A stretch of 64,000 bases of DNA, from assembly GCA_963457665.1 (NCBI GenBank), contig OY735227.1, forward strand, positions 44,891,459-44,955,458, written 5' to 3'. The notes under the pieces were generated by a model. That model did no database searches and was not told where the DNA came from. It worked only from the letters and a program-made list of their open reading frames with translations. This DNA comes from Thysanoteuthis rhombus (taxonomy: Eukaryota > Mollusca > Cephalopoda > Oegopsida > Thysanoteuthidae). Made by a program: the position numbers and the translations under genes. This document shows positions 19,881 to 38,590 of the stretch, piece after piece; position 1 is the stretch's first letter; each line of letters starts with the position of its first letter.

Positions 19881-19887
19881 AATGCAG

Positions 19888-20487
19888 GTGCCTAACCAGG
19901 GAATAATACGGGTGCCTAACCAGGGAATAATACGGGTGCCTAACCAGGGAATAATACGGGTGCCTCACCAGGGAATAATACGGGTGCCTAACCAGGGAAT
20001 AATACGGGTGCCTAACCAGGGAATAATACGGGTGCCTAACCAGGGAATAATACGGGTGCCTCACCAGGGAATAATACGGGTGCCTCACCAGGGAATAATA
20101 CGGGTGCCTAACCAGGGAATAATACGGGTGCCTAACCAGGGAATAATACGGGTGCCTAACCAGGGAATAATACGGGTGTCTAACCAGGGAATAATACGGG
20201 TGCCTAACCAGGGAATAATACGGGTGCCTAACCAGGGAATAATACGGGTGCCTCACCAGGGAATAATACGGGTGCCTAACCAGGGAATAATACGGGTGCC
20301 TAACCAGGGAATAATACGGGTGCCTAACCAGGGAATAATACGGGTGCCTAACCAGGGAATAATACGGGTGCCTAACCAGGAAATAATACGGGTGCCTAAC
20401 CAGGAAATAATACGGGTGCCTAACCAGGAAATAATATGGGTGCCTAACCAGGAAATAATACGGGTGCCTAACCAGGGAATAATACGG
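19888..20487. repeat. Minisatellite, 25 units of 24 bp
   Basis: The array runs for exactly 25 units with no length change. Each unit starts GTGCCTAACCAGGG and ends AATAATACGG. Variants are few: AAC/CAC in the middle (a minority CAC), one GTGTCT unit, and a cluster of GGAAAT units near the right end with one ATATGG. Because 24 is a multiple of three and the unit lacks stops in one frame per strand, both strands show long frames (VPNQGIIR on plus, HPYYSLVR on minus). These are repeat artefacts as far as I can see. Degenerate half-copies continue to about 20570 on the right. Confidence 0.97.
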
Positions 20488-20570
20488 GTGCTTAACGGTT
20501 AGATTAATGCAAGAGCCTATCATTAGGATAGTGCAAGTGCCTATTAACTGATTGATGCAAGTGCCTAACA

Positions 20571-21880: not shown

Positions 21881-21914
<34 letters not shown>
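21881..21914. repeat. (TA)n array left of the hammerhead motif
   Basis: TA run lying about 55 bases before the ribozyme stem I. With a shorter TA run (about 21960-21970) and the right-hand array it could extend stem I pairing. Confidence 0.97.
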
Positions 21915-21918
<4 letters not shown>

Positions 21919-21969
21919 CACGGTATATGTGGTACAAATCAGGCTAGCAGTATAACATGATATATATAT

Positions 21970-22025
21970 ATTCGCCTGATGAGGCCCAAACAGGGCAGAA
22001 ACATGAGCTAGTTTGTGTAGCGGAT
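21970..22025 (+). ncRNA. Hammerhead ribozyme motif (type I topology)
   Basis: The core CTGATGA (21976-21982) is followed by stem II GCCC/GGGC with loop AAACA (21984-21996) and GAA (21998-22000). Stem III is ACAT/GTGT (22001-22004 with 22015-22018, one T-G wobble). The predicted cleavage triplet is GTA (22017-22019). Stem I is ATTCGC (21970-21975) paired with GCGGAT (22020-22025), with one wobble. The fold is therefore open at stem I, the usual form in animal retroelements. One defect is visible: the closing pair of stem II (21983/21997) is G-A where G-C is canonical, so activity may be reduced. (TA)n arrays on both sides could extend stem I. Hammerheads of this kind are known in Penelope-like elements, retrozymes and schistosome satellites. 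No reverse transcriptase is visible beside it. Confidence 0.7.
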
Positions 22026-22033
22026 CCACATTC

Positions 22034-22035
<2 letters not shown>

Positions 22036-22072
<37 letters not shown>
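22036..22072. repeat. (TA)n array right of the hammerhead motif
   Basis: TA run starting 11 bases after stem I of the ribozyme motif. It is complementary to the TA run just upstream of the motif. Confidence 0.97.
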
Positions 22073-29456: not shown

Positions 29457-31223
29457 TCACACCTGCTGAACATTTACCAAAATCAGTGAGCCCATGAGGC
29501 AGAGCCAACGGATCAGGACACCTGTTTGCTCAATGACACACCTCCAATCAACCACAAGGGTCACACTTTCCCACCAACTGCAGATCCACATGTCAACCCT
29601 CCCCATTGAAATTCCATAATAACAGGAAATGATGAAGTTTCTGATTTGGGCTAGACATCGGAAAAAGATGAAGACGGATGTGTCATGGACATAAATTCTT
29701 GAGTCAAACATAGCAGTGAAGAATTGGTATCCACATCTCCAGTGGAGGCTGAAGAATACACAGTGCACAGGTGTGTTCACACGTATTGGTACAATCCGCA
29801 TACTACACAGGGGAATAATACATGTGCAGAATGTATATACAATCTGACATATGAATGTTCGGCACAAATTCCTGGTCAGAGTATGTCTCAAAATAACATA
29901 CCTTTCCAGCATGAGTATAATTCTTGTTCGAACCAAAATGTGCCACTGTAAGACGATTATCCTACTTCTGAGGGAACACCGCCTATGCAAGGTAAAAGTC
30001 TGGTCGCGTGTCGTACAGCGAAAACGTCGGCTAACCCGATGCGTTTGGGTGATGGTACCCCAATCCACGAGAACACACATTGCAGGCAATATACCTATCC
30101 GAGGCCTTATGCCAGTCCAGGCACAAATCTGGTAGCGCCGTTGCATTATAAGTGTTCGTAGGCGCACCACCCGCCTTCGTCGAATTACCACCCTCCTTGT
30201 TTGCACTACATAACCATGGTGCACGACAACGTTGCGTGTTCGGATCACACACTGGCAGTGGACGATCACAGTCCGGATTTGTAACATACATCGTCGCTCG
30301 TAGAGATCTGCTCTTTGGTACACCATTCTGCAATCCACAAACATCGTCTTTGTGCGGATCACATATTTCCAGTTCTGAGTGATTGTCCTGGTTTCAATCA
30401 CAATTTCATCATCGGAAGGACTGGTGACGGCTGATGATGTAGAAGTATTCAAAATACATCTCGGTGAAGATTCTGCTGTTTGGATCCAGAGATTGGTCCC
30501 GATGCAGTAACGCCGACTTCCTGGCAGGTGAAGTCCTTGTAGATGGTAACAACCCCAGAGAAAGAGAACCGTTATTGTTTTGACCATGCAACACCATGAT
30601 ACCATGATTGAGAGCGGTCTAATAACTATCCATAGATCCATCACGATGGTTTTAACGGCAGACTTACAGAAGAAATGCATCTCAAGTAATCCGAGTCCAA
30701 CCAGAATCCGGTAGGTGAGTTCCAACACTTTGGTCTGAACAGTCCATTTGCATTGCAATGTGACCGTTCCGTTCTGTAACACACTCTTGAAATGTGCCAA
30801 AATTGTCCTGGTGTGTACCAAATAGTGGCAGATGTGTACATGCTTTCCAGCCCGTTCGAAAGACTGGCCGTACAAGAGAGTTGTCGTTACCTGAATGCCA
30901 TACTGCCATTCCATTCTAGTCCAAACTCTGGTCAAAGTCTTTCGTCTCCATCCATCACACGAGAATAACAAGTCAGACGGTGGCGTAAGTGACCGGTCAA
31001 AAGGCCATGTCACAATGACTGTGTCATAACCTCATTTCTTGGAAGATCCTCCACATGTTAATTGCTGTCCTTGGGGTTAAAAGAGACTCCTCCGTTCATG
31101 TTGTCCTCGCTGGAAATTGAAAAACTGCCGTCTCATTATGGTAACATTGTATCCCGGTGCCTTGGTTGCTTCACAGGCAAAAATCATCCAATGAATTAGC
31201 AGCCACATCTTCACTGCAGACAT
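29457..31223 (-). pseudogene. Decayed gene for a cysteine-rich secreted or membrane protein
   Basis: From ATG at 31223 the minus strand encodes a typical signal peptide starting MSAVKMWLLIHWMIFAC. Two stops follow in that frame at about 31.08 and 31.03 kb. After that, coding-like sequence appears in different frames. One frame (about 30.87-30.03 kb) has cysteine-rich stretches such as ICDPHKDDVC and PDCDRPLPVCDPNTQRC, N-glycosylation sequons and RNY-biased codons, but several stops. A third frame (about 29.80-29.60 kb) has a Ser/Thr-rich tail. A 518-codon frame ending at 29457 is open throughout, but its V/I/R/T-rich product looks like a shadow. I see no introns and no poly(A) tail. The family is not recognised. 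GC and CpG are clearly higher than in the flanks. A functional gene with unusual decoding or assembly errors cannot be excluded. Confidence 0.45.
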
Positions 31224-37592: not shown

Positions 37593-38590
37593 TGACTGTA
37601 GCATATATTTCTGTGTTAAGTTTCAACTGTAGCATGCAATTCACCGTTACATTTCTACAGTAGCATGCAGTTCACCATTACGTTTCCATAGTAGCATGCA
37701 ATTCACCATTACATTTCCATAGTAGCATGCAGTTCACCATTACGTTTCCATAGTAGCATGCAATTCACCATTACATTTCCATAGTAGCATGCAGTTCACC
37801 ATTACGTTTCTACAGTAGCATGCAGTTCACCATTACATTTCTACAGTAGCATGCAGTACACTGTTACGTTTCTACAGTAGTATGCAGTTCACCGTTACGT
37901 TTCTACAGTAGTATACAGTTCACCATTACGTTTCTACAGTAGTATGCAGCTCACCATTACGTTTCCACAGTAGTATGCAGTTCACCGTTACGTTTCCACA
38001 GTAGCACGCAGTTCACCATTACTTTTCTACAGTAGTATGCAGTTCACCATTACGTTTCTACAGTAGCATGCAATTCACCGTTACGTTTCTACAATAGCAT
38101 GCAGTCCACCGTTACGTTTCTACAGTAGCATGCAATTCACCATTACGTTTCTACAGTAGCATGCAGTTCACCATTACGTTTCTACAGTAGCATCCAGTTC
38201 ACCATTACATTTCCATAGTAGCATGCAATTCACCATTATGTTTCTACACTAGCATGCAGTTCACCATTACGTTTCCATAGTAGCATGCAGTTCACCATTA
38301 CGTTTCTACAGTAGCATGCAATTCACAGTTAAGTCTCTATTGTAGTATGTGGTCTTCTATTAAATCTATACTGTAGTATACTACCATTAGGTTTCTAATG
38401 TAAAGGGTGATCCACCATCAAATATCCACTGTAGTAAATTATCTATCATCAAGTTTTTGCACACACTCAAGTTCAACTATTGAATTTCTACCACAGTATA
38501 TATTTTATATGGTTCACTATTAATATTCTACTGTAGTATGTAACCTACCCCTTAGTTTTTATTGTACTATGTAACCTACAGTTTGCTAAT
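37593..38590. repeat. Minisatellite, ~31-bp unit, about 23 good copies
   Basis: Units start GTAGCATGCAGTTCACCATT and end with ACGTTTCTACA. From 37629 to about 38345 they are regular at 31 bp, with alternating ACG/ACA and CTACA/CCATA variants. From 38345 to 38590 the copies are degenerate and vary in length. The array starts about 180 bp beyond the acceptor of the FAM20B-like exon, so it sits in the intron just upstream of that exon in gene order. Confidence 0.95.

Follow-up and report, generated by a model that had tools for sequence, protein, structure and literature searches.

A hammerhead ribozyme motif at the 5' end of the pseudo-LTR of a likely Penelope-like element family in Thysanoteuthis rhombus

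Penelope elements are already known to carry hammerhead ribozymes. Minimal type I hammerheads in the pseudo-long terminal repeats (pLTRs) of Penelope-like elements (PLEs) were described by Cervera & de la Pena (2014) and Luense et al. (2017), both as cited in the accessible text of PMC7761336, which treats the reason for PLEs retaining hammerheads as an open question. For the Poseidon element in vitro, the available part of PMC11167929 reports that the hammerhead cut only in the presence of protein and that a hammerhead mutation had no effect on insertion. In this study, we analyzed a 64,000-nucleotide stretch of Thysanoteuthis rhombus DNA (contig OY735227.1, positions 44,891,459 to 44,955,458; hereafter, the window), in which a hammerhead motif had been noticed at positions 21970-22025 from the letters alone (the original prediction). 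The motif very probably forms the 5' end of a pLTR that belongs to a PLE family. We describe the motif, its copy number, its linkage to a PLE endonuclease, and the boundaries, two 3' ends, and inverted partner of the pLTR. The less usual features are a 6-bp stem III, a common G.A closing position, a ribozyme-first pLTR, and two 3' ends that join TA or CA arrays. No paper recognizable as treating this PLE family was found among the open-licence papers listed, and strings of the window sequence matched none.

The motif and its genomic copies

A type I hammerhead is defined by CUGANGA, GAA, A15.1-U16.1, and NUH in this order, with three stems, of which stem I is open. All core positions of this type and the three stems (6, 4, and 6 bp) are present in order on the forward strand of the window at 21970-22025, as judged from sequence, Rfam score, fold, and a shuffle scan. 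Stem I (6 bp, including one T.G pair) is formed by ATTCGC (21970-21975), which makes up the element's first nucleotides in most copies, and GCGGAT (22020-22025), assigned from sequence and fold. The catalytic core consists of CTGATGA (C3-A9, 21976-21982) and GAA (G12-A14, 21998-22000), both placed by sequence and an alignment of 56-mers. Between them lies the stem II hairpin (21983-21997), in which GCCC (21984-21987) pairs with GGGC (21993-21996) around the loop AAACA and G10.1 and A11.1 (21983/21997) form a non-Watson-Crick closing position. In the fold, stem III (22001-22018) pairs ACATGA (22001-22006) with TTGTGT (22013-22018), G.T pairs included, around a six-nucleotide loop. Stems of 6, 4, and 4 bp had been proposed; the first two lengths are borne out, and the third is 6 bp. 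Cleavage is predicted between 22019 and 22020, after A22019, the last letter of a GTA triplet, a position that we presume from the hammerhead consensus. The minimum free energy (MFE) structure of the 56-mer (-13.5 kcal/mol, ViennaRNA) contains the three hammerhead stems and two additional pairs within the core.

If the motif were a chance match, a sub-threshold covariance score would be expected, and so would the behavior of a loose sequence pattern, which alone is not significant: with 2 mismatches allowed, it gave 3 matches in the window against a shuffle mean of 1.67, with at least 3 in 22 of 100 shuffles. One of the three matches is exact, and it is the 21970-22025 site. The structured scan, run against dinucleotide-preserving 64-kb shuffles on both strands, gave 1 match in the window; none of 300 shuffles held an equally good one, and looser matches numbered 31 over all 300. 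In the assembly containing the window (2.73 Gb, 514 contigs), the core/stem II pattern CTGANGAGGCCCNNNNNGGGCNGAAAC had 2,672 exact matches (1,371 forward and 1,301 reverse), and the reversed control had 0. The shuffles and the genomic copy count refute a chance match, for which we see practically no room, and so uphold the original prediction on this point and on the existence of other copies in the host genome, which run to thousands.

The 70-mer at 21966-22035 gave at least 46 genomic matches at E <= 0.001, with 40 of 1,467 candidates scored. An own-family model, R1, gives the window copy 86.2 bits, the window copy being one of the 46 sequences from which the model was built. Some copies have an open frame running through the motif. 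Among viral contigs, no relative was found (15 pattern-matching stretches, 0 confirmed). A second hammerhead family was seen at L029:1501-1544 (G000 C6:42974529-42974572), between TA arrays. It has a palindromic stem III (ACAGCTGT), reaches 35.6 bits with Rfam, above the cut-off, and, among the 73 of 299,496 candidates that were scored, was the sole match at E <= 0.001.

Linkage to a Penelope-like element, pLTR ends, and target arrays

The hammerhead was found downstream, on the same strand, in 16 of the 20 loci located via the PLE endonuclease, usually at a distance of 402-442 nt. Three traits of PLEs are present or modeled. The hammerhead sits in a pLTR, at its 5' end. The structural model of a related protein, whose neighbors were taken from the Foldseek list, suggests a telomerase-like reverse transcriptase (RT; telomerase/group II-like). 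A C-terminal GIY-YIG endonuclease is predicted likewise, as the 7 top structural neighbors of the model of P0001, a homolog 43% identical to the endonuclease (EN) of the PLE family, are GIY-YIG nucleases. Pfam made no GIY-YIG call on the open reading frames (ORFs) of the family itself, Pfam and NCBIfam gave nothing above cut-off on the ORFs tried, and sequence searches of the PDB gave nothing useful. The original prediction had likened stem II and its loop to retroelement-type hammerheads and proposed a check for a nearby Penelope-like reverse transcriptase; a retroelement-type motif with a Penelope-like source is supported by the endonuclease linkage and the two protein models. A fragment of another GIY-YIG protein, perhaps from another PLE type, adjoins a copy of the studied family at L059:790-1308 on the reverse strand (PF01541, 18.7 bits, below the cut-off of 22.6).

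Of 45 unique direct pLTRs selected by the hammerhead, 23 have an inverted pLTR as their upstream neighbor, 10 a microsatellite, 10 the PLE 3' untranslated region (UTR), and 2 other sequence; head-to-head pairs may count both members within the 23. For 18 direct pLTRs at endonuclease-selected loci, this neighbor was the UTR in 16 and other sequence in 2. The point at which the inverted partner is cut varies, and the direct pLTR starts within 0-2 bases of one position. The EN loci that were read are fragments, with a 3' pLTR, an inverted pLTR, and the two 3' ends seen and no direct pLTR seen upstream of the ORF.

Among 79 classed copies, two 3' ends of the pLTR recur, a short one in 48 and a long one in 28; 3 have no recognizable tail. 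The short end, near ...CCACATTCTAC, runs into TA in 36 copies, CA in 3, and neither in 9. The long end, near ...TTTGTACCA(C), runs into TA in 16, CA in 8, and neither in 4. The association of 3'-end type with array type is modest and concerns related copies (Fisher p = 0.015). Of random 20-nt stretches of the window, 1.3% touch a TA, CA, or TG array of at least 12 nt.

A non-LTR retrozyme, which is a non-autonomous tandem repeat of 150-450 bp that carries type I hammerheads and propagates as circular RNA, could also produce a commoner short 3' end and a locus such as L035, where two direct pLTRs start 159 bp apart. Moreover, most classical type I hammerheads in animal genomes reportedly sit in retrozymes, according to the accessible text of PMC7229834. 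The motif is nevertheless linked to the PLE endonuclease at most of the loci found through that protein, and the window locus holds no tandem array of suitable period (150-450 bp). We regard a retrozyme as highly improbable.

The TA arrays could be slippage products of the element's own TA-rich ends and not its insertion target. The ends read ...CTACTATTT and ...CACATATA and could seed TA runs. Such an origin is unlikely, given that CA arrays also occur at 3' ends (11 of 79), that microsatellites adjoin 5' ends as well (10 of 45), and that the array type tracks the 3' end used, with the reservation on related copies made above.

Closing position, conservation, and activity

Described hammerhead motifs usually have a Watson-Crick pair at 10.1-11.1, and the window copy has G.A (21983 opposite 21997). 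This was first taken for a peculiarity of the copy, a view that the family does not sustain: G.A is found in 42 of 43 close copies and in 35 of 46 unique 56-mers. Of the 2,672 pattern matches, the first 100 were listed; 79 of these have A at position 11.1, 13 have T, 7 have C, and 1 has G, which corresponds to G.A, G.U, G-C, and G.G, respectively, at 10.1/11.1. Because A occupies 11.1 in the majority of copies, the mismatch is a family trait and not a local mutation, G.A being what most members have at the base of stem II. A divergent subfamily B (CTGAAGAAGCC...) closes stem II with A.A in its copies L027:804-859 (-), L027:864-919 (+), and L010:2789-2844; the two copies of L027 form a head-to-head pair.

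The core nucleotides are conserved in 43-46 of the 46 unique 56-mers, a set biased towards the queries, and the variable sites are N7 (T 38, A 8), loop II, and 11.1. When the seven G-C copies were folded, L075 and L077 each gave a hammerhead whose core is open, L072 came close to this, and the other four did not fold in this way.

Several results weigh against an intact hammerhead in a PLE. With Rfam, nothing in the whole window exceeded any cut-off, and the Hammerhead_1 model (RF00163), named at the outset as a check, gave 19.1 bits, short of the gathering score of 34. The E value of 0.6 refers to 4 kb searched against 4,227 families; that for a single family would be about 1e-4. None of the seven canonical G-C copies reaches the Rfam cut-off, and a permissive search with four of them returned no hammerhead among the matches at E <= 0.05. 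The compensatory stem changes that had been looked to for confirmation do not exceed chance in the 46 sequences (a single both-sided change, where shuffles average 0.7), and stem cells are paired in 94.6% of cases, observed and shuffled alike, the sequences being very similar. Only 28 of 43 close copies pass an end-stem test for the hammerhead as MFE structure, and L018 and L044, among these 28, have an altered interior. The direct copies seen carry an uncut motif, and truncations show no peak at the cleavage site, since 1 of 37 5'-truncated pLTR copies starts at most 2 nt from it. None of the loci seen held a complete element, one with an intact ORF as well as both direct pLTRs. Finally, nearly all analyzed copies were picked, among the matches listed, by their likeness to the hammerhead or the endonuclease.

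Two of these results call for comment. As the G-C copies also fall below the cut-off, the Rfam model may be a poor judge of the PLE family; this poor fit cannot serve as evidence of activity. The lack of a start peak at the cleavage site means that these copies give no sign of cut RNA as a template, in agreement with the Poseidon results in vitro in the available part of PMC11167929. Truncated starts cluster instead immediately 3' of stem II, at positions 25-28 (7 of 37, p = 0.0009 against uniform starts; 6 of 36 and p = 0.012 without one tandem duplicate), with smaller clusters elsewhere, such as 4 starts at 172-173.

The motif could therefore be hammerhead-shaped and catalytically dead, its sequence kept as a promoter, a protein-binding hairpin, or coding sequence, with G.A marking lost cleavage. 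The PLE anatomy would be the same and the function alone would differ. The prevalence of G.A or G.U at 10.1/11.1, covariation no higher than chance, 37 truncated copies without a cleavage-site footprint, and the sub-threshold Rfam score all fit a dead motif. It accords less well with a core conserved across the observed subfamilies, in which variation falls on N7, loop II, and 11.1, or with the existence of canonical-pair copies, two of the seven fetched (L075 and L077) folding as open-core hammerheads. We consider a dead motif possible, though not the probable outcome; that family-typical copies cleave is a prediction we hold to be somewhat probable.

The window copy itself is a separate matter. 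Its insertion is flanked on the left by a (TA)17 array (21881-21914) and on the right by a (TA)18 array (22037-22072). The direct, short-form pLTR (21970-22036, forward strand) comprises the hammerhead and 11 nt (CCACATTCTAC), followed by (TA)n; the pLTR match is 94.6% over 74 nt and reaches 22043, inside the TA array. Upstream, on the reverse strand, lies an inverted, head-to-head fragment of the distal pLTR 'tail' (21923-21963), 95% identical to positions 192-232 of the L018 pLTR reference. Hence the motif does lie between TA arrays, as originally described, except that the left array is not adjacent: 55 nt (21915-21969), mostly the inverted fragment, intervene. Queries with the pLTR, UTR, and endonuclease detected no further piece of the element within the window.

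The hammerhead fold has a predicted probability of 0.37 in the 56-mer alone, 0.10 in the short pLTR, and 0.02 with a few TA on each side. With the inverted fragment included, this probability drops to about 2e-6 because ATCAGGC pairs with GCCTGAT, a further point against the motif as a working ribozyme here. Energy models omit tertiary contacts, so these values are relative indications. The suggestion that the TA runs extend stem I is not what the predicted fold gives; in it, the arrays pair together and the hammerhead core is taken up by pairing with the inverted tail fragment. The window copy is a decayed remnant and, in the transcript context that it now has, probably does not act as a ribozyme.

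Elsewhere in the window, about 25 copies of a 24-bp repeat occupy 19887-20496, with an open reading frame on both strands (VPNQGIIR on the forward strand), and about 23 copies of a 31-bp tandem repeat occupy 37616-38326. A stop-free stretch of 524 codons on the reverse strand (29457-31031), without a Pfam match, is possibly a gene remnant and is overlapped by a second, cysteine-rich frame at 30031-30393.

Proposed mechanism and comparison with known systems

In the proposed mechanism, the element RNA, with the first nucleotide of stem I as its presumed 5' end, would be bound by the RT/GIY-YIG protein, and the endonuclease would cut a TA- or CA-rich array. Reverse transcription would begin within the RNA at either of two putative priming sites, which lie about 66 and about 230 nt in from the RNA 5' end, and would proceed to that end. 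Frequent snap-back or second priming, as the copies suggest, would leave a truncated inverted copy upstream. The hammerhead would cleave tandem or read-through element RNA after GTA.

More speculatively, the pLTR may have been reduced to a near-ribozyme unit of 67 nt (with the commoner 3' end), in which the RNA 5' end would be the hammerhead 5' end and the 3' end an internal RT start, CTAC, pairing with TA arrays; a second start, ACCAC, would match CA arrays. The G.A-tolerant ribozyme with its long stem III might then act as a monomeric, deliberately slow switch that spares most RNA for reverse transcription, and the truncations 3' of stem II might be fossil marks of the folded hairpin. We advance this proposal tentatively and consider it doubtful as a whole. 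Its thousands of copies, precise 5' end at stem I, two array-fitting RT starts, and natural G.A, G.U, and G-C variants make such a family a direct test of what is kept: cleavage, folding, or something else. It also offers a possible explanation for inserts in the (TA)n and (CA)n arrays of such genomes.

The family shares type I hammerheads in short AT-rich repeats with the metazoan non-LTR retrozymes (accessible text of PMC7229834). Theirs lie in tandem non-coding repeats of 150-450 bp, whereas the present ones lie in the pLTR of a coding PLE. With the Penelope families of Adineta vaga, as far as the available portion of PMC3846280 goes, it has in common a shorter inverted pLTR head to head with a direct pLTR, an optional tail, and a preference for simple AT-rich targets. 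The word hammerhead does not occur in that paper, and inserts there often have target site duplications, which are not visible within the present TA arrays. Relative to the minimal PLE hammerheads (PMC7761336, in the text available), the type I core, the pLTR location, and the thousands of dispersed copies are shared; the 6-bp stem III and the mostly G.A closing of stem II are different.

The comparison with Poseidon PAc of Anolis carolinensis (PMC11167929, available part) extends to a hammerhead ribozyme (HHR) associated with a PLE, two RT start sites that give an optional tail, and AT-rich targets. Uncut RNA as the main template, demonstrated in vitro for PAc, can be likened to the pattern in the present copies. 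The PAc HHR overlaps the ORF start, whereas the present HHR forms the 5' terminus of the pLTR; and the RT start of PAc is non-homologous to the cut DNA, whereas the present 3' ends share their last letters with the TA or CA arrays.
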